Below are positions 46,768-62,112 of a stretch of DNA of 64,000 nt, piece by piece (the first letter of the stretch is position 1; every line of letters begins with the position of its first letter). This stretch comes from Terriglobia bacterium. Its GTDB lineage: Bacteria > Acidobacteriota > Terriglobia > Acidiferrales > UBA7541. The translations under genes were made by a program, and so were the position numbers. The stretch covers positions 186,001 to 250,000 of the forward strand of contig JAIQGG010000003.1 in the NCBI GenBank assembly GCA_020072785.1. Direction: 5' to 3'. Below the pieces are notes generated by a model, which saw only the letters and a program-made list of their open reading frames with translations, ran no database searches and was not told the DNA's origin.

Positions 46768-48204
46768 CTAGCCCGCCGGCCAAGAAGCCGCGGCCTTGGC
46801 CGCCTTGCGCCGCCCGTACACAAAAAAGAAAAAGGCCGCCAAGCCGATAAAAAAGAGGGTTCCGCCGGCCATCCACACCTCGTAGGAGACGATGGAGGTG
46901 ATCTGTGCGGCGGGAAAGAATACCAGCACGATTCCCAGAGTGGTGGTGAGCAGCCCGCTCGCTCCCGCCAGAAACAGCGTCGTGCGGCTGTAATACCCCG
47001 TGGCCACGGGCTCGCGCCAGGCGATCTTCAACAGGGCCCCGAACATGTACAGAAACGGAATCAGCTGCAGCACCACCGCCAGAGACAGCAGCCGCTGAAA
47101 CGATTCCTGCACGCTCGAGCCCGCCAGCACGAAATTCAGCACCACCAGAATCAGCGACACCGCCGCGTGCACGATTAGCGCCGCATACGGCGTGCCGTAC
47201 TTCGCATGCACTTTCCCCAGCCACGCGGGCATGTAGGAATCGAGCCCCGCGACAAACGGAATCCGCGCCGAGCCCCCCAGCCACGCCGAGCCGATTCCCG
47301 CGATGGAAATGCTCAGCATCAGCGCAAATGGCGCCACGATCCAGCTTACCCCGACGCGGTAGGCCATGTGGCTCACCGCCTGCACGATCCCCTGCAGCAC
47401 GCTGATCTCGTCGCGGCTCACCGCCACCAGCAGCGTCAGCGTCGCCCCGATGTACAGAATCCCCGAGAGCACGCCGCCCCAGGCCACCGCTCCCGGCAGC
47501 GTGCGCCGGGGATCCTCGATCTCATCGCCCATCACCGAAGCCAGCTCCAGCCCCACCAGCCCGAAGCAGATCACTCCGAAGGAATTCAACACGAAGCGCG
47601 GGTTGTCCGGAATGCGGAAGTCCGCGGCGGAAATATGCACGCCGAATTTCAGGCAGACGATGATGCCCAGCCCGATCAGCAGGCCGGCCGCTATCGTCGA
47701 CCCAATCCCGCCCAGGTTGTTGATCCACTTCCCCACTCCCAGGCCCACGATATTCAGCACCACCAGGACCGCCAGCAACGCCACCGACGCGCCCAGCGCA
47801 AACGCCTTGTTGTCCGCCAGCCCCTGATGCCCGCTGCCGAATACGAAGACCGATACTCCGACGAAGTACAGCATCACCGTCGGCACGTACATCATGTTGT
47901 TCGTCCAGTAGCACCACCCGGAAAGAAATCCGTGGAAATCGCCGAAGACCTCCTTGGCCCACAGGTAGACGCCGCCTTCCCCGGGATACCGGTGCCCCAG
48001 CTCGATCACCGCAATGCCTTGCGGCCAGAAGAAAAGCAACAGCGAAATGATCCACAGCCAGACCGTGACTCCGCCGTTGGCGGCAATCGAAGGCAGGACG
48101 TTCAGGTTGAAGACGGCGACCACGAAAAGCAGAACCAGGTCACCCCGTCCGAGCACGCGCCGCAGATGCGGCTGTGACTCTGCCGATGTGACCTCGTTTG
48201 CCAT
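46768..48204 (-). CDS. APC-family amino acid/amine permease
   Basis: A 478-residue inner-membrane permease with about twelve helices. The first helices show NLNVLPSIAANGG and the YPGEGGVYLWAKEVFG loop typical of the amino acid-polyamine-organocation superfamily; FGLVGLELASVMGDEIEDPR (about 215-234) is the conserved segment of helix 6 and the following loop. ATG at 48204 is chosen with GGGAG six bases before it. It is second in the four-gene operon between a HemL-like aminotransferase and the aldehyde dehydrogenase, so it probably imports their substrate, such as an amino acid or amine. Specificity cannot be read from sequence. Confidence 0.9.
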   Translation of the reverse strand: MANEVTSAESQPHLRRVLGRGDLVLLFVVAVFNLNVLPSIAANGGVTVWLWIISLLLFFWPQGIAVIELGHRYPGEGGVYLWAKEVFGDFHGFLSGWCYWTNNMMYVPTVMLYFVGVSVFVFGSGHQGLADNKAFALGASVALLAVLVVLNIVGLGVGKWINNLGGIGSTIAAGLLIGLGIIVCLKFGVHISAADFRIPDNPRFVLNSFGVICFGLVGLELASVMGDEIEDPRRTLPGAVAWGGVLSGILYIGATLTLLVAVSRDEISVLQGIVQAVSHMAYRVGVSWIVAPFALMLSISIAGIGSAWLGGSARIPFVAGLDSYMPAWLGKVHAKYGTPYAALIVHAAVSLILVVLNFVLAGSSVQESFQRLLSLAVVLQLIPFLYMFGALLKIAWREPVATGYYSRTTLFLAGASGLLTTTLGIVLVFFPAAQITSIVSYEVWMAGGTLFFIGLAAFFFFVYGRRKAAKAAASWPAG

Positions 48205-48229
48205 GTGGATCTCCCGTTGGGGCCGCTGC

Positions 48230-49609
<1,380 letters not shown>

Positions 49610-49824: not shown

Positions 49825-52800
49825 TTAGAAGTACAGCTTCAGCGCGAACTGCACCAGCCGCGGTTCACGTGCGCGCTTCACACGGCCGAAATCTCCTCCA
49901 TCGGTAATGTTGCCGTCCGGCTGGAAGAACTGCGTGTGATTGAATACGTTCATGAAGTCGCCGCGGAATTCGAACCGCACGCGCTCATTTACCGGGATTT
50001 GCTTCTGGAATCCCAGGTCGGTGTTGAAGGCGCTCGGCCCGCAGCAAATCGTCCGCGGAGCGTTGCCGATGGTGCCAAGGGCCACGGTGCCATTGGTGAA
50101 GGTATTGGGGTCGAACCCATAACCAGGAAGTATTTGACAAGGATCACTGGTGCCGGAGTACGGTCCCGTGCCCAGCGCGCAAGCGCCGGTGCGCGGGTCC
50201 GTAGCCTTGAACGTGGCTCCCGCAGCATAGTTCGGCTGGCCCGGCATTTCGAAGTCGAAGCTCCCCTGCAACTCCTGATCATCCTGCGACGTGATGCGGA
50301 TGGGGAATCCCGACTGCACCGTCGTGATGCCGGAAAGCGACCAGCCGTTCAGCATCTTGCCGGTAAACCCCTGGTATTTGGGCACAGGGAGATCCCAGTA
50401 AAAGCTGAAGATGAAGCGGTGCCGCGCATCGAAGATCGAAAGCGAGCGGTTGCGCTTCATATTGTAGGGATCCACCAGGCTTTCGAACGTGGACGCGTAG
50501 TCCATCGATTTTCCAAAGGTGTACGACGCCTGGAACTGCACCCCGTGCGAGAATCGCTTTTCCAGGCTGGCCTGCAGCGAGTTGTACGAAGAGTTCGCAA
50601 TTGTGTCCTGCGAGAAAATACTGCTGATCACCGGAACATTGTCAATCGGGCAGCCCCCGCCGCTCAGCGGGTCGCAGTTCGGCGAAGAGTACGGCCGTAG
50701 CCCTACGAGCGTGATCGGAGTACCGAGTGCCGCACCGGTCACCGTACACGCAGCCGGAGCGTTCACGAGGGGGCAGGGAATGTTCGGGCCTCCCGGCGTC
50801 GAACCCCCCACATAGGGCAGGTGGAAAACCGAGCCGCTCGGGAGAGTGAACGAATAGGAGCTGTCGGCGTAGAATTGCCCGCAAGAGAGATCCGCGTTCC
50901 CCGTCGAATCTGCGAGGCTCTGCAGGTCCAGGCAGGTTTGCGCGTTGCCGGGATTCAGGTCCCGCGTCGCCAGTTGCCGGTGGCCCTGCCGTCCGACGTA
51001 GCCGATCTGGAAGACCAGATCCTTCGCGATCTCCCGCTGGATCGTCAGGTTGTACTGCTCGGCATACTGCGCCTTCATGTTCGCCGGCCACTGCCCATAG
51101 AAAAGCATGGGCCGGAAAACGGACCAATCCACGGGCGTGCCGCGAGCCGGATTGAGGATGCCGTTGAAGGGGTTGGGAGCGCTCGTGCCATCCTGATACT
51201 GAAACGGCAGGCTGAGCATGGTGTTATAAATGCTCGAACTGCCGCCGAACGGCGGCTCGGCGCTGAACTGTTCAAGAACGAGCTGTTCGATCGGGTTATA
51301 GAACATGCCGAAACCAGCGCGCACGCTGGTCTTGCCCGGTCCGCCAAAGAGCTTGCCCAGCACGCCTTCTCTTGCTTCCGGGCTCCAGGCCAGTCCGATG
51401 CGCGGCGCGAAGGCATGGTAGTAGGTATTCGTCAGTCCGTCCGGAACGCCCGTATCTCCTGGGACAACCACTCCGGTCGGAAGAACGCCTGCCGTTCCGC
51501 AGTCGGAGCTGTTCCCATTTAGGGCATAGAGCGGATTGTCCACGCCAATCGAGCAGGGATAGATCGTGGTGCTCTGTCCGGGGTGGAAGGTCTGCACCTT
51601 TTTGCCTTTATCCGTTAGCGGGGTATTCAGTTCCCAGCGTACCCCGTAGTTCAAGGTCAGACTGTTCGTGATCTTCCAGCTGTCCTGCGCAAAGAGGTAA
51701 GCCGCTTTGCTGCGCACCAGTTCGTCCTGCGCGGAACCCTGAATGTAGTTGTCGTTGAGCCCCAGCAGGAAGTTCGGGAAAAGGTTCTGATACATCGGGT
51801 CGTTCGGACCGCCTCCATAGATATAGAAGGCGCCGTTGATGTCAAAATAGAGGCGCTGATCGAACTGCTGAATGCGGAAATCGCCGCCGAACTTCAGGCT
51901 GTGCTTGCCGAGCTCCTTGCTGTAGCTCTCGGTGAACTGGTAGGTGTTGCCCTTTTGCGGGAGCTCGCCTTCGAAGTTGTTGCCCATGGAGAATCCGCCG
52001 GAAATGGAAACAAAGGGCAGACCTTCATGAGTGGCGCCGAGATTGGGATAGACGCCCAGGCCCGTATTGTTGGTGTTGTTCGGATTGTTCGGGTCGATAA
52101 AGCAATTGGAAGCGACGATCCCCGGGCAGGAATTCCCGACAAGACTGGTGTTCTGCGGATGCAAGTAGGTTCCCTGTCCTTCCCGCATGAACGTAAACTT
52201 CAGCTCGTTGACCGCGGTGCTCCCCAGCCGCCAGCTGTGCTTGACCACGATCTGCTGGGTACGCTCATCCGTCAGGTCTCCGAAGCCGGGAAGGTTCGAA
52301 CCGCCGGCCTGGAACCTGGCGAAGGGTTTTGCCAGGTAGTGCTGGGTGAAGTAGTAATAACCCATCAGGTCTTGGGTCTTTGTCAAGGTATGGTCAAATT
52401 TTAGAGTGAACTGATTGCTGCGCTCGTGCCCCAGCGGCACGCCCTGCCAGGTGCCGTCTGGACGGTTGGCGGAGGGTACCAAGGTCATCAGATCCTGGGC
52501 CAGCGGGTCCATGCAAGACACGGGAATGATGTTGTCCCGGCCGCCTGGCGTTACTGTATCGGTGAACAGACCCGGCGTCAGCAAAGCATTGGTAATCGGA
52601 TCGTACGTCCCGGCATAGTTCACCCCGGCCACGATGGGGAACGAGCCGCCATGTTGCGTATTGATGTCCGCCTGACAGGTTGACCTTCCAGCCAGCACAG
52701 TTGCAAGATTCGCGTCGGTCAGCACACCGGCAAACGGGGAGCCCGCGGAAAAATTACCGGCGCGCTCGTCAGCCGTTGGCACTGTCACCGTGTCGGAGGA

Positions 52801-53763
52801 AGTGCCCTTGCGTAGGCGGTTGCCTTCATAACTCGCGAAGAAGAACGACCGGTCTTTCTTCACGGGCCCGCCAAAGGTGGCCCCGAATTGATTCTGGAGA
52901 TAGTCCAGCTTGCTGGAGTCGAAGAATCCTTTGGCGTTCAGGTTCTGGTTGCGGAAGTAGTCGTACACGTTGCCGTGCCAGTCGTTCGTGCCGGACTTGG
53001 TCACCACGTTGATCACCGCACCGGAGTTGCGCCCGTATTCGGCGTCAAACGTGTTGGTGAGCACGCGGAATTCACCGATGGCGTCCGGAGAAGGCTGAAT
53101 GGCGGGCAGGTTGGCGAACTGGTCGTTGCCGTCTCCGCCGTTCACCATGAAGTTGTTGTCCCGTCCGCGGCCGCCGTTGACGCTCACCACGCCGGCTTTG
53201 TCGCTGCCAAAAACGTTGTCCACGCCCAGCTGTGACTGCACGCCCGGCTGCAGCGACAGCAATTGATAGGTGTCGCGCTGCGCCAGCGGGAGCTGGCTCA
53301 CCGAGCGCTCATTCACGACCGCGCCCAGTTGCGTCGACGTCGTATCCACTAGCGGGGGCGCGCCGGTCACTTCGACCGTTTCCGCCGCCGCGCCCACCTG
53401 CAGGGTGATGTCCAGCGTAAGCACTTCGTTCAACTGCAGCACGATGCCCTTGCGCAGATACTTCTTGAAGCCCGCCATCTGCACTTCCACCTGGTAGCTG
53501 CCCACCGGCACTTCCAGGAACATGTACTCGCCCGTGCCGCTGCTCTGCGCGTCGCGCTTCGCCCCCGTCGCCTCATTGGTCAGAATAACCGTGGCTGCGG
53601 TGACCGAACCGCCGCTGGAGTCCAGCACCGTGCCGCGGATGCGCCCGCCCGTGCCCTGCGCGTGCGCCAGCGACGGCGCCAGCAGCGCAACCAATAACAG
53701 AAAAATGGGCGCGGACGCAGCCCGCCGCGCAGCGTGACCAAAAATTTTGTTCAGTGAACTCAT
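49825..53763 (-). CDS. TonB-dependent receptor, Oar-like (second copy)
   Basis: A 1312-residue outer-membrane receptor with the same plan as the one at 15833-19672. Signal peptide (about 1-36), carboxypeptidase-regulatory-like domain (about 40-125; RIRGTVLDSSGGSVTAATVI), plug domain (about 130-245; LPLAQRDTYQLLSLQPGV) and beta-barrel ending VQFALKLYF. ATG at 53763 has GGGAGGGG 8 bases before it; a frame starting at 53781 lies inside that site. It is divergent from the MerR-XRE-cupin regulator, with 88 bases between, so the regulator may control both. Its ligand may be the compound used by the nearby ABC transporter and amidohydrolases, by inference. Confidence 0.93.
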   Translation of the reverse strand: MSSLNKIFGHAARRAASAPIFLLLVALLAPSLAHAQGTGGRIRGTVLDSSGGSVTAATVILTNEATGAKRDAQSSGTGEYMFLEVPVGSYQVEVQMAGFKKYLRKGIVLQLNEVLTLDITLQVGAAAETVEVTGAPPLVDTTSTQLGAVVNERSVSQLPLAQRDTYQLLSLQPGVQSQLGVDNVFGSDKAGVVSVNGGRGRDNNFMVNGGDGNDQFANLPAIQPSPDAIGEFRVLTNTFDAEYGRNSGAVINVVTKSGTNDWHGNVYDYFRNQNLNAKGFFDSSKLDYLQNQFGATFGGPVKKDRSFFFASYEGNRLRKGTSSDTVTVPTADERAGNFSAGSPFAGVLTDANLATVLAGRSTCQADINTQHGGSFPIVAGVNYAGTYDPITNALLTPGLFTDTVTPGGRDNIIPVSCMDPLAQDLMTLVPSANRPDGTWQGVPLGHERSNQFTLKFDHTLTKTQDLMGYYYFTQHYLAKPFARFQAGGSNLPGFGDLTDERTQQIVVKHSWRLGSTAVNELKFTFMREGQGTYLHPQNTSLVGNSCPGIVASNCFIDPNNPNNTNNTGLGVYPNLGATHEGLPFVSISGGFSMGNNFEGELPQKGNTYQFTESYSKELGKHSLKFGGDFRIQQFDQRLYFDINGAFYIYGGGPNDPMYQNLFPNFLLGLNDNYIQGSAQDELVRSKAAYLFAQDSWKITNSLTLNYGVRWELNTPLTDKGKKVQTFHPGQSTTIYPCSIGVDNPLYALNGNSSDCGTAGVLPTGVVVPGDTGVPDGLTNTYYHAFAPRIGLAWSPEAREGVLGKLFGGPGKTSVRAGFGMFYNPIEQLVLEQFSAEPPFGGSSSIYNTMLSLPFQYQDGTSAPNPFNGILNPARGTPVDWSVFRPMLFYGQWPANMKAQYAEQYNLTIQREIAKDLVFQIGYVGRQGHRQLATRDLNPGNAQTCLDLQSLADSTGNADLSCGQFYADSSYSFTLPSGSVFHLPYVGGSTPGGPNIPCPLVNAPAACTVTGAALGTPITLVGLRPYSSPNCDPLSGGGCPIDNVPVISSIFSQDTIANSSYNSLQASLEKRFSHGVQFQASYTFGKSMDYASTFESLVDPYNMKRNRSLSIFDARHRFIFSFYWDLPVPKYQGFTGKMLNGWSLSGITTVQSGFPIRITSQDDQELQGSFDFEMPGQPNYAAGATFKATDPRTGACALGTGPYSGTSDPCQILPGYGFDPNTFTNGTVALGTIGNAPRTICCGPSAFNTDLGFQKQIPVNERVRFEFRGDFMNVFNHTQFFQPDGNITDGGDFGRVKRAREPRLVQFALKLYF

Positions 53764-53800
53764 GGACGTGACCCCTCCCAAAAAACATTGGAAATCGTGG

Positions 53801-53829
53801 TTGCTGCACCCCTGAAACCTTACTATAAT
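53801..53829 (+). promoter_or_regulatory. Promoter of the MerR-XRE-cupin regulator gene
   Basis: TTGCTG (53801-53806), 17-base spacer, perfect TATAAT (53824-53829). Transcription would start near 53836, only about 16 bases before the ATG at 53852. Confidence 0.7.
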
Positions 53830-53840
53830 CCAGCAAGGTT
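53816..53840. promoter_or_regulatory. Candidate operator overlapping the regulator promoter
   Basis: AACCTT (53816-53821) and AAGGTT (53835-53840) form a dyad with a 13-base centre that holds the whole -10 box. A bound dimer would block this promoter and could also act on the divergent receptor gene, so autoregulation is likely. Confidence 0.5.
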
Positions 53841-53851
53841 AGAGAAAGCCC

Positions 53852-54688
53852 ATGCCGCTGTCAAGCACAAAGAATTCGCGGAACCCCAAGCGCGCCGCCG
53901 CCCACGGAAAGCCTCTGCGCATCAGCGCCGTCGCCAAACGTGTGGGCATTTCCTCTTCCGCCCTGCGCGCCTGGGAAGCCCTGGGCCTCATCGCTCCGCG
54001 GCGCACCCGGAGCAAGTACCGCCTCTACTCCGAGCGCGACGTGCGCCTCCTGCAGCGCGCCATCTTTCTCCGCCGCGCTCGCGGCCTCAACCCCGCCGCC
54101 ATCGTCCACGTCCTCAAGCGCCAGGGCGTGGTCACCGCCCCCGCCGGCAGCGCCGCCCTTCCCGGCCCGCGCTTCCGCCGCCTGCGCACCCGCCGCGGCC
54201 TCTCCCTGGCCCAGGTGGCCCGCGCCACCGGAGTTTCCGCGGGCTTTCTCAGCGCCCTCGAACGCGGCCAGATGCGCGCCTCGGTTTCCACCCTGCGCCG
54301 CATCGCCCGCTTCTACCGCACCAACATCCTTTCCCTCTTCGAGCCCGTTGGCGACAATCCCCGCCTGGTGCGCCCCGCGCAGCGCAAAGTTCTGGAGACC
54401 GCTCCCGGCGTGCGCATGGAGCTTCTCGCCTGGGGCAACACCGCCATGGAGCCGCACCTCTTCCGCCTTAAGCCCGGCGGCGGCAGCGGCGAATCCTATG
54501 CCCACGAAGGCGAAGAGTTCTTGCACATTCTCAAGGGCCAACTGGAAATCTGGCTCAACGAGCACGAGCACTACCGCCTGCGGCCCGGCGACAGCCTCTA
54601 TTTCGAGAGCGCCACGCCGCACCGCTGGAAAAATCCCGGCAAGCGCGAGACCATGCTGCTCTGGATCAATACGCCGCCCACGTTCTGA
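53852..54688 (+). CDS. Transcriptional regulator fusing MerR, XRE and cupin domains
   Basis: A 278-residue protein with three parts. Residues 21-92 are a MerR HTH and linker: RISAVAKRVGISSSALRAWE, then LGLIAPRRT and YRLYSERDV. Residues 104-163 are an XRE-type HTH: FRRLRTRRGLSLAQVARATG, then FLSALERGQ. Residues 189-278 are a cupin: YAHEGEEFLHILKGQLEIWL and a late ATPHRW, with H218, E222 and H257 likely metal or ligand contacts. XRE-cupin is the PuuR plan (putrescine-responsive repressor); an extra MerR domain in front is unusual. It faces a TonB-dependent receptor gene and precedes an amidohydrolase and a PotABCD-like transporter. The cupin probably senses the imported compound or a breakdown product. 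Confidence 0.9.
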   Translation: MPLSSTKNSRNPKRAAAHGKPLRISAVAKRVGISSSALRAWEALGLIAPRRTRSKYRLYSERDVRLLQRAIFLRRARGLNPAAIVHVLKRQGVVTAPAGSAALPGPRFRRLRTRRGLSLAQVARATGVSAGFLSALERGQMRASVSTLRRIARFYRTNILSLFEPVGDNPRLVRPAQRKVLETAPGVRMELLAWGNTAMEPHLFRLKPGGGSGESYAHEGEEFLHILKGQLEIWLNEHEHYRLRPGDSLYFESATPHRWKNPGKRETMLLWINTPPTF

Positions 54689-54690
54689 AA

Positions 54691-54773
54691 ATGCGTTGAC
54701 CGCTTTGCGGTCACGCATGAAGTTGACCGCTTTGCGGTCACGCATGGATTTGGCCGCTTCGCGGTCACAGATA
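54691..54773. repeat. Three tandem 27-bp repeats, each a hairpin
   Basis: Three copies with a 27-base period begin TTGACCGC at 54696 and 54723 and TTGGCCGC at 54750. In the first two the core is TGACCGCTTTGCGGTCA, a 7-bp stem with a TTT loop, followed by CGCATG. The third has compensating and single changes. They begin just after the regulator stop (54688) and end about 60 bases before the amidohydrolase start. Confidence 0.85.
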
Positions 54774-54832
54774 TCTATGACCCCTGGTTCGTGACCCGGA
54801 AATCGTGATACAAGCTCAACCCTGAGGTGCCC

Positions 54833-56542
54833 GTGAAGACCACGCGTTTCTTTTCCGCCATCCTGGTTCTGGCTTCCTTCTTTAGCTTCTCCTCCACCGC
54901 GCGCGCGCAATCCGCAAAAATTCCGGTAGCGGACACCGTCGTCGTGCACGGCCGTGTCTATACCCTCAACGCCGGGCAGCCGTGGGCCGAGGCCGTGGCC
55001 ATCCGCGGCGCCAAGATCGTCGCCGTCGGCTCCGACGCGGAAGTCGGCAAGCTCCGTGGCGCGGGCACCAAAATCATCGACGCCCAGGGCCGCCTTGTCC
55101 TCCCCGGCTTCGTGGACTCGCACATCCACTTCCTAGACGGCTCCTTCAGCCTCGGCCGCGTCAACCTCGAAGGCGCGAAAGACCCCGCGGACATCCAGCA
55201 GCGCCTCCGCGCATACGCCGCCCAGCATCCCGGCACTGGCTGGGTCCTCGGCCGCGGCTGGAACTACGCCATGTTCGGCGCCGTGGCCCTCCCGCACAAA
55301 AAATATCTCGACGAAATCTTCCCTGACCGCCCGGTCTTCCTCGAAGGCTACGACGGCCACACCTACTGGGCCAATTCCAAGGCTCTGGCCCTCGCCGGCA
55401 TCACCCGCGAAACCCCCGACCCGCCCAACGGCATCATCGTCCGCGACCCGCAAACCGGCGAAGCCACCGGCGCGCTGAAGGAAGAAGCGCAGGCGTTAGT
55501 CGCCAGGATGGTGCCCAAGCCCACGCGCGCCGAAAAACTGGCCGCCCTGCGCGCCGGCATCCGCTGGGCCAACCAGCACGGTCTCACCAGGGTGCACAGC
55601 TGCGGCGGCGATTTCCCCGAACTCGACCTCTACGACGAGCTGCGCCGCCACGGCGATCTCACCCTGCGCTTCACCATCGCCTATTTCCTCGATCCCCCGG
55701 AGCTCCGCCCCCGGGACCTCGAGGCCATCGAAGCCGCGCGCAAGAAATTCCACGACGAGTGGATCGACACCGATGCCGTGAAGTTCATGCTCGACGGCGT
55801 GGTCGAAGCCCACACCGCGGCCATGCTCACTCCCTACAGCGACGACCCCTCCGTGCAGGGCAAGCTCTTCTGGGATCCCGCCAAGTACGGCGCCGCCGTC
55901 GCCGAACTCGACAAGCGCGGCCTGCAGCTCTTCACCCACTCCATCGGCGAGCTCGCCGTGCGCACCGCGCTCGACGCCTACGAGAACGCCGCCAAACTCA
56001 ACCGCACCCGCGACCGCCGCCCGCGCATCGAGCACATCGAAACCGTCGCCGCCGCGGACATCCCGCGCTTCGGCAAGCTCGGCGTCATCGCCAGCATGCA
56101 GCCTCTGCACTCCTATCCCGACGACAACCTCAATAACGTCTGGGCCCGCAACGCCGGACCGGACCGTTCCTCGCGCGCCTGGTCGTGGCGCAGCATCGCC
56201 CAGGCCGGCGGCCGCTACACTTTCGGCAGCGACTGGCCGGTGGTCACCCTGGATCCCTGGATCGGCGTGCAGACCGCGGTCACCCGGCAGACCACCGAAG
56301 GCGCTCCCCCGCCAGGTTTCGTCCCCGAGCAAAGGCTTTCCGTCGCCGAAACCATCCGCGGCTACACCCTCGATGCCGCCTTCGCCGGCCGCCGCGAAAA
56401 AACCGAAGGCTCGCTCGAACCGGGCAAACTTGCCGATCTCATCATCTTGTCGCAAAACGTTTTCGAGATCGACGCGCACAAAATTGCCGAAACCAAGGTG
56501 CGGACCACCATCGTCGCCGGCCAGGTCGTCTATCAGCAGTAG
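54833..56542 (+). CDS. Exported amidohydrolase of the YtcJ/AepA type
   Basis: A 569-residue metal-dependent hydrolase with a signal peptide (about 1-26, ending TARAQ). VDSHIHF (His97, His99) is the metal-binding HxH, preceded by the usual TLNAGQPWAEAVAIRGAKIV-type sheet. Later motifs are GYDGHTYWANSKAL, a DAVKFMLDGVVEAHTAAML segment, HSIGELAVR, RIEHIET and FGSDWPV. The family hydrolyses amide or ester bonds of varied compounds. GTG at 54833 is chosen since GAGG lies 5 bases before it; the GTG at 54827 overlaps that site. It starts the plus-strand series that continues with the ABC transporter, so it may release an amine or amino acid for uptake. Confidence 0.88.
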   Translation: MKTTRFFSAILVLASFFSFSSTARAQSAKIPVADTVVVHGRVYTLNAGQPWAEAVAIRGAKIVAVGSDAEVGKLRGAGTKIIDAQGRLVLPGFVDSHIHFLDGSFSLGRVNLEGAKDPADIQQRLRAYAAQHPGTGWVLGRGWNYAMFGAVALPHKKYLDEIFPDRPVFLEGYDGHTYWANSKALALAGITRETPDPPNGIIVRDPQTGEATGALKEEAQALVARMVPKPTRAEKLAALRAGIRWANQHGLTRVHSCGGDFPELDLYDELRRHGDLTLRFTIAYFLDPPELRPRDLEAIEAARKKFHDEWIDTDAVKFMLDGVVEAHTAAMLTPYSDDPSVQGKLFWDPAKYGAAVAELDKRGLQLFTHSIGELAVRTALDAYENAAKLNRTRDRRPRIEHIETVAAADIPRFGKLGVIASMQPLHSYPDDNLNNVWARNAGPDRSSRAWSWRSIAQAGGRYTFGSDWPVVTLDPWIGVQTAVTRQTTEGAPPPGFVPEQRLSVAETIRGYTLDAAFAGRREKTEGSLEPGKLADLIILSQNVFEIDAHKIAETKVRTTIVAGQVVYQQ

Positions 56543-56622: not shown

Positions 56623-56642
56623 GCACAGGCTGAAGCCTGTGC
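56623..56642. repeat. REP-like palindrome before the binding-protein gene
   Basis: GCACAGGCT and AGCCTGTGC with a GA loop, a 9-bp stem, 18 bases before the PotD-like ATG. It resembles the palindrome at 27822-27839 in its central GGCT-xx-AGCC. Confidence 0.6.
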
Positions 56643-56659
56643 GGCTGGAGCTGGACACC

Positions 56660-57721
56660 ATGAAGCGTCGCGCATTCTTCCTGACTCTGTTGGCGCTGGC
56701 ACTTGCTTGCGCCTCCTGCAAGAAAAAAGAGGAAACCCTCAGCCTCCTCGTCTGGGAAGGCTACGCCGACCCCGCTTTCGTCCGCGCCTTCGAAGAGGCC
56801 CACCACTGCAAAGTCGTCGCCTCCTACATGGGCTCCAGTGACGAGCTGGTCGCCAAGCTGCGCGGCGGCAGCGCCTCAAATTACGACGTCATCTCCCCTT
56901 CCAGCGACGTCGCCGGAATGATTGCCAGCACCGGCCTCGCCGCGCCGCTCGATCTCGCCAAGCTTCCCGCCTACTCCCAGCTCTCCGCGAAGCTCCGCGC
57001 CCTGCCCCTCGTCAAAGCGAATGGCCGCACCTACGGCGTTCCCTTCATGTGGGGCCCCAACCCGCTCCTCTATGACACCACCGCGTTTCCCCAGCCTCCC
57101 GGCTCCTGGGCTGTCTTCTGGGACCCCCAACACAAGGGCAAAGTCTCCGTGTGGGACGATCTTTCCACTGTGTACATGGCCGCGCAGATCCTCGGCTACG
57201 ACAAACCCGATCCCGCGCAGCTCTACAATTTGAATGACGCGCAGCTCGCCGAAGTCAAAAAGAAACTCCTGGCCCTCAAGCCCAACGTCCGCAAGATGTG
57301 GACCTCCGGCGGTGAGCTCACCAATCTTTTTCAGAACCACGAAGTCGCCGCGGCCATGGGCTGGCCGCTCATGACCAACCAGCTCCGCAAACTGAACTTC
57401 CCCATCGGCGAAACGATTCCCAAGGAAAACACCACCGGCTGGATCGACCACCTCATGATCACCGCCGCTAGCGAGCGCAAGGAACTGGCCCACGCCTTCC
57501 TCGCCTATATGATCGAGGCCCGGACGCAGAAAAAAGTCACGGACGTTACCGGATACGTTCCCGCGAATCCCGCCGCGGCGCAGTTCATGACCGCCGGGGA
57601 AAAAAAGAGCCTGCACCTCGACGATCCCGACGCCTACATGCAGCGCATCTACTTCTGGCAGGACGTGCCGCGCCGCGCCCGGTACAACGAACTCTGGAAC
57701 GAGGTCAAAGCCGCGCAGTGA
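56660..57721 (+). CDS. potD: PotD-like periplasmic binding (lipo)protein of ABC transporter
   Basis: A 353-residue extracytoplasmic solute-binding protein of the spermidine/putrescine type. The N-terminal signal ends LALACASC, suggesting a lipoprotein though the box is not typical. [20 protein letters not shown], then [11 protein letters not shown] and a C-terminal [13 protein letters not shown] are hallmarks of the PotD/PotF group. ATG at 56660 has GGAG 9 bases before it. Its stop overlaps the ATPase start. The acidic ligand-binding residues of PotD were not checked one by one, so polyamine is a family-level guess; related systems take up other amines or small organic compounds. Confidence 0.85.
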
Positions 57722-58818
57722 GCAGCGCACCCGCACCCGCGATTCCGCAAAGCGCCGCGCCCCTTCTAGAGGTGCGCGGGATCGCCAAGCGCTTCGGCGC
57801 GCACGAAGTTCTCAAGCGCATCTCCCTGGACATCGCCCAGGGCGAATTCCTCACCCTGCTCGGGGAAAGCGGCTCCGGCAAGACCACCCTCCTGCGCCTC
57901 ATCGCCGGCTTCGAACAGCCCACCTCCGGCGAAATCTGGATGGGCGGCGAACGCCTCGACACCCTGCCTCCCTACCGCCGCCGCGTGAACACCGTCTTCC
58001 AGAACTACGCGCTCTTTCCGCACCTCAGCGTGCGCGACAACGTGGCCTACGGTCTGCGCGTCACCCGCGTGCCCAGCCACGAAATCGCCGCCCGCGTCGA
58101 GGAAGCCCTGCGCATGGTCAAGATGCAGGAGTTCGCCGGCGCCCGCCCCTCCCGCCTCAGCGGCGGCCAGCAGCAGCGCGTGGCGCTGGCCCGCGCCCTC
58201 GTCAACCGCCCGCAGCTCCTGCTCCTCGACGAGCCGCTCTCCGCGCTGGACGCCAATCTGCGCAAGGAGATGCAGTCCGAACTCAAAGCCCTGCAGCGCG
58301 AAATCGGCATCACCTTCCTCTTCGTCACCCACGATCAGGAAGAGGCCATGGCCCTCTCCGACCGCATCGCGCTCCTGCGCGACGGCGCCCTCGAACAGGT
58401 CGCCTCGCCTCGCGAAATCTACGCCCATCCCGCCACCGCCTACACCGCGCGCTTCATCGGCCACACCAATCTCCTGCGCGCCGAAATCCGCAACGAAATC
58501 GCCACCTGCGGCGCTCTTCGCTGGCCCGTCGTCGAATCAGCCGCAGAAGCCGCCCCGCTGGCCATCGGCCCGGCCGTCTTCTCCCTCCGGCCCGAAGTCA
58601 TCCGCCTCGCGGCCGCCGGCAGCGCCGCTCCCGCCGGTGCCGTAAAATTTTGCGCCACCATCCGGCAGCAGATCTTCAGCGGCGCCAGCGAAATCCTGGA
58701 ACTCGCCTGCAGCGGCGGCTTGGAACTCCGCGCGCGCATCCCCGCGCAGGGCCCCCTTGCCGGCCCACACGAATTTTTCTTTTCCGCAGCGGACGCCATC
58801 CGCGTCCGGGGGTCGTGA
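57718..58818 (+). CDS. potA: PotA-like ABC transporter ATPase
   Basis: A 366-residue ATP-binding subunit. Walker A GESGSGKT is at 49-56, Q-loop [12 protein letters not shown] at about 94-105, signature LSGGQQQR at 147-154, Walker B LLLLDEP at 167-173 and the H-loop in [11 protein letters not shown]-terminal TOBE domain (about 275-360) matches polyamine- and Fe-type importers. GTG at 57718 overlaps the binding-protein stop (GTGA), and the stop in turn overlaps the next GTG. It energises the two permeases that follow. Confidence 0.93.
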
Positions 58819-59702
58819 CCACCGCCCGCGGACCACTTTCTCCCATGTACTCGCGCCTCTACAAAGCGATCATCTCGGTGCCGCCCCTCTTCTGGGTGGG
58901 GCTCTTCCTGCTGCTCCCCTATGCCCTCATGTTCGCGCACAGCTTCTGGGCCGTCCGCGAAGGTTTCCTCGTCCACCAGTGGAATCTCCACAACTACCAG
59001 ACCCTCGCCGGCAATCCCGTCTATGCCGAGGTTCTCTTCCGCACCATGCGCATCGCCGCCTCCGTCACCCTCTGCTCCCTGCTCCTCGGCTATCCCCTCG
59101 CCTACTACCTTTCCTTCCACGCCGGGCCGCGCAAGGAACTTCTCTATCAACTGGTCATCGTCCCCCTATGGGTCAGCTATCTCGTCCGCGGCTACGCCTG
59201 GAAAACCATCCTTGGCAGCGACGGCGTGCTCAACGGCTTCCTGCAGTATTTCCATTTCACCAGCGAGCCCGCCGGCTTCCTCCTCTATAGCCCCTTCGCC
59301 GTCGTCCTCATGCTCACCCACATCTACACTCCCTTCGTCTTCCTCCCCATTTACGCCGCTCTCGAGCACATCCCCCGCCCGCTCGTCGAAGCCTCGCAGG
59401 ATCTCGGCGCCGGTCCGCGCGCTACCTTCTTCCGCGTCATTCTGCCCCTCTCGCTTCCCGGCCTCCTCGCCGGGGCCACCTTCGCCTTTCTTCTTTCCCT
59501 CGGCGACTTCCTCGCCCCGCTGCTCGTCGGCGGCCCCTCCGGCACCATGATCGCCAACATCGTGCAGAGCCTCTTCGGCGCCGCCTACGACTGGCCCCTT
59601 GGCGCGGCCCTCTCCGTCTGCATCCTGCTGCTCACCGTCTCCCTGCTCTTCCTGACCGAGCGCCTCGAAAAGCGCTGGTCCTACAAAGGAGCGGCCCAGT
59701 GA
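58815..59702 (+). CDS. potB: PotB-like ABC transporter permease
   Basis: A 295-residue inner-membrane permease with about six helices. The ATPase-contact loop reads [27 protein letters not shown] (about residues 188-214), the EAA motif of the family. GTG at 58815, which overlaps the ATPase stop as GTGA, is chosen because the genes on both sides use the same overlap; ATG at 58845 would make a 285-residue protein starting MYSRLYK and is also possible. It pairs with the following PotC-like permease. Confidence 0.9.
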
Positions 59703-60517
59703 ACGCGCGCGCCAGTACCTCGCCCGCGCGCCGCGCCCCGCTGCTCACTGCTTACGCGCTGCTCGTTTTCGCCTTCCTCTATCTGCCCATCGCCGTGCTC
59801 ATCGTCTATTCCCTCAACCGCGACGGCGTCGGCGGCTTTCCTCCGCAGCATTTCACGCTCGCCTGGTACCGTCAGCTCTTCGCCGACAACGCCATCTGGG
59901 ACGCGGTTCTCAACAGCGTGTTCGTCGCCGTGGCCAGTGTTCTGCTCTCTCTGACCCTCGGCCTCCTCGCCGCTCTCGCTCTCGAGCGCGCCACCTTTCC
60001 CGGCAAGCCGCTCTTCCGCCGACTCGTCCTTCTCCCCCTCATCCTCCCCGGCATCATCACCGGCCTCTCCCTGCTCATGTTCGCCGTTTTCGCCGGCGTC
60101 AAGCTTAGCCTCCTCACCGTCTTTCTCGGCCACGGCACCGCGCTGATCTCCGTGGCTACCACCGAACTCTTCGCCGGCCTCCAGAAAATGGACCGCGCCC
60201 AGGAAGAAGCCTCGCTCGATCTCGGCGCCAGCCAATGGCAGACCTTCTGGCGCGTCACCCTGCCCAACCTGAAATTGCCGCTCATCGCCGCCGCCCTGCT
60301 GATCTTTACGCTCTCCATGGACGAAATCGCCGTCACCTTTTTCCTCATCGGGCGCGACAATACCCTGCCCCTGGAGATCTGGGGCCGCCTGCGCCGCGGC
60401 ATCACCCCGGAGATCAACGCCATCTCCACCATCATCTTTGCCGCTTCAGTCGTGCTCATCGTTATCTGGTACCGCCTGCGCGCCCGTACGGAGCGCGCCG
60501 AGCGCCTGCTCTTGTAG
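59699..60517 (+). CDS. potC: PotC-like ABC transporter permease
   Basis: A 272-residue permease with about six helices and the EAA loop EEASLDLGASQWQTFWRVTLPN (about 164-185). FTLSMDEIAVTFFLIG near 202-217 is typical of PotC and relatives. GTG at 59699 overlaps the upstream stop (GTGA). It completes a binding protein, ATPase, permease, permease operon with every junction overlapping by four bases. The final stop lies inside a REP-like repeat. Confidence 0.92.
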   Translation: MNARASTSPARRAPLLTAYALLVFAFLYLPIAVLIVYSLNRDGVGGFPPQHFTLAWYRQLFADNAIWDAVLNSVFVAVASVLLSLTLGLLAALALERATFPGKPLFRRLVLLPLILPGIITGLSLLMFAVFAGVKLSLLTVFLGHGTALISVATTELFAGLQKMDRAQEEASLDLGASQWQTFWRVTLPNLKLPLIAAALLIFTLSMDEIAVTFFLIGRDNTLPLEIWGRLRRGITPEINAISTIIFAASVVLIVIWYRLRARTERAERLLL

Positions 60518-60540: not shown

Positions 60541-60567
60541 TTGCCCCCGCAGAAGAGGTACGCAACA

Positions 60568-62112
60568 ATGACTTGCGCAATTCACACAGGTGGCCCCATG
60601 ACGCGATTCCTTGCACGCTCGTTTGCCGCAGCCTTCCTCCTTCTCGCTGGCGCCGGAATGTTTCTCCGCTCCCAGGAAAAACCGCCATCCTTCGTCATTG
60701 CCGGCGCGCAGCTCGCCGACGGCACCGGCGCGCCGCTGCGCGCCGCCAGCGTGCGCGTCGCCGGCGGCAAGATCGTGCAGATCGGCAAGTTTGCTGCGGC
60801 CCAGGGCGAGCGCGTCATCGACGGCACGGGCCTGGTCCTGGCCCCCGGCTTCATCGACATGCACAACCACTCCGCGGAGGGCATCGCCGAGGATCCGCTG
60901 GCCGAATCGCAGATCGCCCAGGGCATCACCACCGTGATTCTCGGCCCGGATGGCGATTCTCCCTGGCCGGTCGGAGCCTGGCTCGAAGCGCGCCGCAAGA
61001 ATCCCGCCGCGTTGAACCTGGCCACCCTGGTCGGCCACGAACCGGTGCGCCGCGCCGTCATGGGGCAGGACTACAAGCGCGTAGCCACTCCGGAAGAGAT
61101 TGCGAAAATGGCCGCGCTCGTCGAGCAGGGCATGCGCGAAGGCGCCATCGGATTTTCGAGCGGTCTCGAATACGAGGTCGGCAGCTACAGCTCCACCGGC
61201 GAGGTCGTGGCCCTGGCCCAGGCCGCCGCAAAACACGGCGGCTTCTATGAAACGCACATCCGCGACGAAGCCGACAAAGCCTTCGACGCCCTCCGGGAAG
61301 AGATCGCCATCGGCGAGCGCGCGCACATCCCCGTCGAGCACTCGCACATCAAGCTCGGCACCGTAGCCGTGTGGGGGAAAGCTCCCGGATACATCCGCCT
61401 GATTGAAGAAGCGCGCCAGCGCGGCGTCGATTTCCTCGCCGACTGTTATCCCTATGACGCCTGGCACTCCACAATCAAGGTGCTGGTTCCGGACAAGCAG
61501 TACGAAAATCCGCAAAGCGTGGAGAAGGCGCTGGCCGATGTGGGCGGCGCAAACCACGTGACCATCACCGGCTTCCCGCCGAATCCGGCCTACGAGAACC
61601 GCACCATCGCGGAGCTCGCCGGCGCTCGCGGCATCTCCCCCGTCGCGATGTTCATCCGCATCATCCGCGAGGGCGACGCGGCCAACTCCGATGCCGCCGT
61701 GATCGGCCAGTCCATGGTCGAAAGCGACATCCAGGCCTTCTACCAGCAGCCCTGGGTCATGGTGGCCAGCGACGGCGGCATCGGCATGCACCACCCGCGC
61801 GGCGCGGGCACCTTCCCCCGCGTCCTCGGCCTCTTCGTCCGCGAGAAGCACTGGCTCACGCTGCCCGAAGCCGTGCGCAAGATGACTGCGCTCCCCGCCC
61901 AGCGTCTCGGCTGGAAGGACCGCGGCGTCCTGCGCGAAGGCGCCGCCGCCGACCTCGTGCTCTTCAATCCCGGCACGGTCATCGACCGCGCAACCTTCGC
62001 CAAACCTTTCGAGCTGCCTGCGGGCATCGAAAAAGTTTTCGTCGCCGGCGAACTCGTCTGGGACGCCGGCAAGCCCACCGGCGCGCGCCCCGGCCGGGTC
62101 CTGCCGAATTAG
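60568..62112 (+). CDS. N-acyl-D-amino-acid deacylase-like amidohydrolase
   Basis: A 514-residue metal hydrolase with a signal or anchor (residues 12-34). FIDMHNHSAEG gives metal-binding His99 and His101. ETHIRDEADKAFDALRE, the following EHSHIKLG and SDGGIGMHHPRGAGTF match the D-aminoacylase branch, which removes acyl groups from N-acyl amino acids. ATG at 60568 has AGAGG 9 bases before it; ATG at 60598, with a closer AGGTGG, is an alternative. It follows the PotC-like gene by about 50 bases. With the amidohydrolase at 54833 it brackets the transporter, suggesting that acylated amines or amino acids are opened outside and taken in. Confidence 0.87.
   Translation: MTCAIHTGGPMTRFLARSFAAAFLLLAGAGMFLRSQEKPPSFVIAGAQLADGTGAPLRAASVRVAGGKIVQIGKFAAAQGERVIDGTGLVLAPGFIDMHNHSAEGIAEDPLAESQIAQGITTVILGPDGDSPWPVGAWLEARRKNPAALNLATLVGHEPVRRAVMGQDYKRVATPEEIAKMAALVEQGMREGAIGFSSGLEYEVGSYSSTGEVVALAQAAAKHGGFYETHIRDEADKAFDALREEIAIGERAHIPVEHSHIKLGTVAVWGKAPGYIRLIEEARQRGVDFLADCYPYDAWHSTIKVLVPDKQYENPQSVEKALADVGGANHVTITGFPPNPAYENRTIAELAGARGISPVAMFIRIIREGDAANSDAAVIGQSMVESDIQAFYQQPWVMVASDGGIGMHHPRGAGTFPRVLGLFVREKHWLTLPEAVRKMTALPAQRLGWKDRGVLREGAAADLVLFNPGTVIDRATFAKPFELPAGIEKVFVAGELVWDAGKPTGARPGRVLPN

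Follow-up and report, generated by a model that had tools for sequence, protein, structure and literature searches.

Activators of the classic MerR type bind operators that lie between −35 and −10 elements set 19–20 bp apart. Repressors of the PuuR/PauR type, described in E. coli and Pseudomonas, carry an XRE helix-turn-helix (HTH) followed by a single C-terminal cupin and adjoin genes for the uptake and catabolism of amines and amino acids. The characterised XRE-cupins are local repressors of adjacent metabolic genes that bind palindromes as dimers (PMC7901475). The regulator considered here, encoded in a 64,000-nucleotide stretch of Terriglobia bacterium DNA (the window), shares with PuuR/PauR both this domain plan and this kind of neighbourhood. 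It differs from them in having an added N-terminal MerR winged HTH and a candidate operator of 25 bp with N9 spacing. Palindrome and synteny are conserved at the locus, and local control by repression is predicted. We think it probable that the protein is a PuuR-type XRE-cupin with an extra MerR HTH at its N terminus, and that it represses both divergent operons locally and, with them, its own expression.

53852–54688, forward strand: MerR-XRE-cupin transcriptional regulator, 278 aa (open reading frame, Pfam, relatives, AlphaFold2 model)
53918–54121, forward strand: MerR_1 winged-HTH domain, aa 23–90 (Pfam, AlphaFold2 model)
54176–54328, forward strand: HTH_3/XRE domain, aa 109–159 (Pfam, AlphaFold2 model)
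54458–54667, forward strand: Cupin_2 domain, aa 203–272 (Pfam, alignment of relatives)

All three domains exceed their Pfam cut-offs (MerR_1, 59.5 bits against 21.6; HTH_3, 55.1 against 23; Cupin_2, 72.2 against 27.2), and the modules follow one another in order in the AlphaFold2 model, as the first-pass annotation had supposed in reading MerR, XRE and cupin in one chain. Its view that a MerR HTH precedes an XRE-cupin built on the PuuR plan is likewise borne out by Pfam and by the PuuR model NF007408, which aligns almost full length to aa 104–278; since the score is 67.4 bits and the cut-off 211, the protein is PuuR-like rather than PuuR itself. Among solved structures the XRE-cupin 1Y9Q ranks first as a relative, both in sequence and in fold. 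A second look (VIA) took in little beyond the cupin part and so carries no information on the two HTHs. The N-terminal MerR_1 domain is held in common with the MerR family (HspR, CarH, GlnR/TnrA, CueR), the best matches of this type being the equivalog HspR and the solved structures GlnR and CarH.

The AlphaFold2 model was built from 42 relatives and has a mean pLDDT of 79 and a pTM of 0.55, at which the arrangement of the domains is not reliable. Its N terminus is a MerR-type winged HTH (helices 24–31, 35–43, 61–77 and 81–90), separated by a low-confidence linker from a five-helix XRE fold (105–162), and its C-terminal part is a beta-barrel (180–273). In contrast to the MerR family, where the dimerisation helix comes after the MerR domain, XRE and cupin modules follow here; because this single model of moderate confidence places no long helix in residues 90–105, the usual dimerisation element seems to be absent. 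In the cupin, H218, E221, E222 and H257 are invariant in the alignment of 42 relatives, and a metal site is therefore allowed. The same invariant H-x3-E...H pattern, together with the ranking of chains of the XRE-cupin epoxidase HppE directly after 1Y9Q in the fold search, would suit a cupin enzyme akin to HppE in place of a regulator. We judge this very improbable, since two DNA-binding domains, a conserved candidate operator at the gene's own promoter and relatives placed beside varied catabolic operons all fit a regulator.

A profile search, the check that the first-pass annotation had put forward, finds MerR_1, HTH_3 and Cupin_2 in that order, and when 56 relatives from Acidobacteriota, Pseudomonadota and Actinomycetota were scanned singly, all 56 had all three. 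Among plasmid records, at least 121 show alignments that span 80% or more of the segment holding the two HTHs. Patterns from the cupin part recover at least 558 relatives in species genomes; the best 80 of the 558 are almost all labelled Acidobacteriota, and the other 478 may include XRE-cupins that lack MerR. Proteins of this plan are frequently annotated in public records as "MerR family transcriptional regulator"; the rhizobial and actinobacterial ones share the three-domain plan at about 33–43% identity but have other neighbours and a motif just loosely similar. The 56 three-domain relatives, the plasmid records and the three phyla rule out a rare architecture. The first-pass annotation would have given up its reading had either HTH fallen below threshold or had the architecture proved both common and already characterised: common it is, while both HTHs lie above threshold and our literature search for the MerR-XRE-cupin architecture or a characterised member found none. 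In a tree of the XRE-cupin part the fusions cluster, with two label changes; because the branches are long, we make no claim of a single origin.

Several of these relatives have neighbourhoods of their own. Rhizobial ones often diverge from a GABA aminotransferase gene (gabT) with succinate-semialdehyde dehydrogenase (gabD) behind it, or in one case from gabT alone, and further relatives adjoin folate/ETF genes. S. meliloti 1021 has a homologue on pSymB, at about 936.8–937.6 kb. The gabT-regulator gaps of L153, L062, L159 and L163 share TTGCATTTTTTCTGCAA-like motifs, which in some genomes occur twice, about 30 bp apart; in the rhizobial branch this motif is likely to serve as the operator. L156 and L157 represent a plasmid-borne subgroup with the same plan whose neighbours are purU, folD and genes for electron-transfer flavoprotein, which suggests other amine substrates.

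The genes that surround the regulator in the window are as follows.

46768–48213, reverse strand: APC-type amino acid permease
48230–49609, reverse strand: class-III aminotransferase, glutamate-1-semialdehyde aminomutase type
49825–53781, reverse strand: divergent outer-membrane TonB-type receptor (CarboxypepD_reg and OMP_b-brl_4)
54827–56542, forward strand: Amidohydro_3 metal-dependent hydrolase
56639–60517, forward strand: PotD-, PotA-, PotB- and PotC-like ABC transporter
60565–62112, forward strand: amidohydrolase like D-aminoacylase/N-acyl-D-amino acid deacylase (start approximate)

The divergent TonB-type receptor and the PotABCD-like operon named by the first-pass annotation are thus both present, with an amidohydrolase gene between the regulator and the latter. 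The block permease-aminotransferase-receptor, diverging from regulator-(optional amidohydrolase)-PotD-A-B-C, recurs in the majority of some 78 Terriglobia loci, judged where the contig was long enough. The aminotransferase is closest to glutamate-1-semialdehyde aminomutases, with a further likeness to the aminotransferases of D-phenylglycine and of beta-amino acids; for the last amidohydrolase the closest match is D-aminoacylase. The PotD-like binding protein can be aligned to polyamine binders of the PotD type, and a W-x-D and a DD position are kept in the alignment. These likenesses point to an amine or an (N-acyl) amino acid as the probable substrate of the module. Between the regulator and the first amidohydrolase (54695–54775) a hairpin-like 27-bp repeat, GTTGACCGCTTTGCGGTCACGCATGAA, stands in three tandem copies, and its 24-bp core has 55 copies in the genome at up to 2 mismatches and 0 in the control, in the manner of a REP-like interspersed family.

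The gap of about 70 nt between receptor and regulator contains a single clear candidate operator, not two half-site systems, and elements of two predicted divergent promoters lie in and around it.

53801–53806, forward strand: weak −35, TTGCTG (sequence; 17-bp spacer to the −10)
53816–53840: 25-bp palindromic candidate operator, AACCTTACTATAATCCAGCAAGGTT (conservation, genome copy number, co-occurrence with the regulator)
53824–53829, forward strand: −10, TATAAT, within the palindrome (sequence and conservation)
53836–53841, reverse strand: proposed −10, TAACCT, overlapping the right arm of the palindrome (inferred)
53859–53864, reverse strand: proposed −35, TTGACA (TGTCAA on the forward strand), 17-bp spacer (sequence and conservation)

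The palindrome has the nearly invariant form AACCTTRC-N9-GCAAGGTT, and when upstream regions were compared, CCTTRCTATAAT was found inside it in 75 of 77 loci, the exceptions being L142 and L145, which are more distant and differently placed. Its arms pair at 8 of 8 positions in 46 loci and at 7 of 8 in the window; in the Acidiferrum group a right arm that frequently reads AAACTT makes the palindrome imperfect. We found no second palindrome, and the entire conserved block spans only about 50 bp.

By pattern search the window's genome holds one perfect copy, in the receptor-regulator intergenic region, and two sites with one mismatch, no more than a reversed-pattern control gives. A global regulon is rejected for this genome on these counts. 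The "master switch of the module" imagined by the first-pass annotation is supported locally, where synteny is conserved and the operator is unique to the intergenic region. Within the genus sample, 22 genomes contain the extended element, every one of them with the regulator; it was not found in G005 and G017, where the regulator gene is absent, or in G021, where a contig end truncates the regulator. Across 297 genomes of the phylum a 26-bp element appears in four, exactly those with a relative of 61–100% identity, as one copy each directly upstream of the regulator gene, and it is absent from the more distant fusion-bearing genomes of that set. A search of viral contigs did not find the element. 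A half-site shared across phyla, YTTRC-N9-GYAAR, is at most suggestive, being clear in two Shinella loci and weak or absent in many others. To our knowledge the 25-bp candidate operator has not been reported before.

Two genomes of the genus sample, G016 (L179:1445) and G018 (L180:251), have a second operator-like element with TGTCAAG at a similar distance, and both also carry a second regulator, 44% identical, 9–15 kb away; the element in L179 precedes another receptor gene.

Both the forward and the reverse promoter fell below the threshold of a generic promoter scan, because each combines one perfect with one weak hexamer; both are therefore inferred from conservation. TGTCAA stands 18 or 19 nt after the right arm in 72 of 75 loci, and we propose that TTGACA-N17/18-TAACCT on the reverse strand is the receptor promoter. 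In the Acidiferrum group (window 53852–53875; L067–L081) the coding start overlaps the conserved TGTCAAG box, and in Sulfotelmatobacter-type loci the likely start codon comes after the box; DNA constraint may have shaped the regulator's N-terminal leader.

The spacers of these predicted promoters are ordinary, about 16–18 bp, and the palindrome lies on the −10. Such geometry would not fit classic MerR activation. A MerR-style activator, bound to the palindrome and using its ligand to switch on the forward promoter or that of the receptor, could draw on the intact MerR domain, the weak forward −35 and a half-site, ACCTT...AAGGT, that resembles known MerR-family operators. We nonetheless regard it as unlikely: the centre of the palindrome falls on the −10 rather than between −35 and −10, the spacer is about 16–17 bp and not 19–20, and the coiled-coil helix is absent from the AlphaFold2 model. 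Quite unlikely, too, is a two-site regulator whose MerR HTH holds the palindrome while its XRE HTH holds a different element, such as a second site or the TGTCAAG box, so that the two promoters are bridged. The retention of TGTCAAG at 18–19 nt, the conservation of both recognition helices inside the core group and the paired motif copies of some rhizobial gabT-regulator gaps speak for it; against it, the more convincing reading of TGTCAA is as the divergent promoter's TTGACA, and the conserved block takes up no more than about 50 bp, with no second palindrome found. The first-pass annotation had envisaged two kinds of half-site or the bridging of two promoters, and the single compact palindrome does not bear this out. 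Since the forward −10 lies within that palindrome and the proposed reverse promoter adjoins it, simple occlusion suffices.

We therefore favour local repression, and suggest that it would work as follows. A dimer of the regulator would sit on the palindrome, held together through its XRE/cupin part because the MerR module appears to lack its usual dimerisation helix. It would cover the TATAAT of the regulator-amidohydrolase-PotDABC operon and also the edge of the receptor-aminotransferase-permease promoter, shutting both operons. With the forward −10 occluded, and the reverse promoter covered at its downstream edge, one site would set the output of both operons and the level of the regulator. 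A metabolite of the pathway, which from the neighbouring genes we guess to be an amine, an amino acid or an N-acyl amino acid, would bind the cupin and cause release, the cupin acting as a ligand gate, probably with a metal in the H218/E222/H257 site. The second HTH would add contacts or affinity on this one operator; it would not join distant promoters.

Our attempt to assign the operator to a single HTH by comparing recognition helices does not decide the matter: between groups the MerR helix is the better conserved, within the core group the XRE helix. It is conceivable, if doubtful, that each protomer uses both HTHs on a composite 25-bp operator, with one HTH, MerR or XRE, on the outer AACC and the other on the inner TTGC. 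We know of no description of such a reading mode in the MerR or the XRE-cupin family; were it true, a cupin-gated dimer with four major-groove contacts would lock two overlapping divergent promoters at once.

The regulator is a variant within the XRE-cupin kind, and its architecture is common in databases. A widespread and apparently unstudied class of regulators, found in Acidobacteriota, Pseudomonadota and Actinomycetota, thereby acquires a conserved module as well as an operator and a regulon that are both predicted; together they make the function of the class directly testable. In a larger context, the locus raises the question of why a second HTH was fused to an already complete XRE-cupin repressor.
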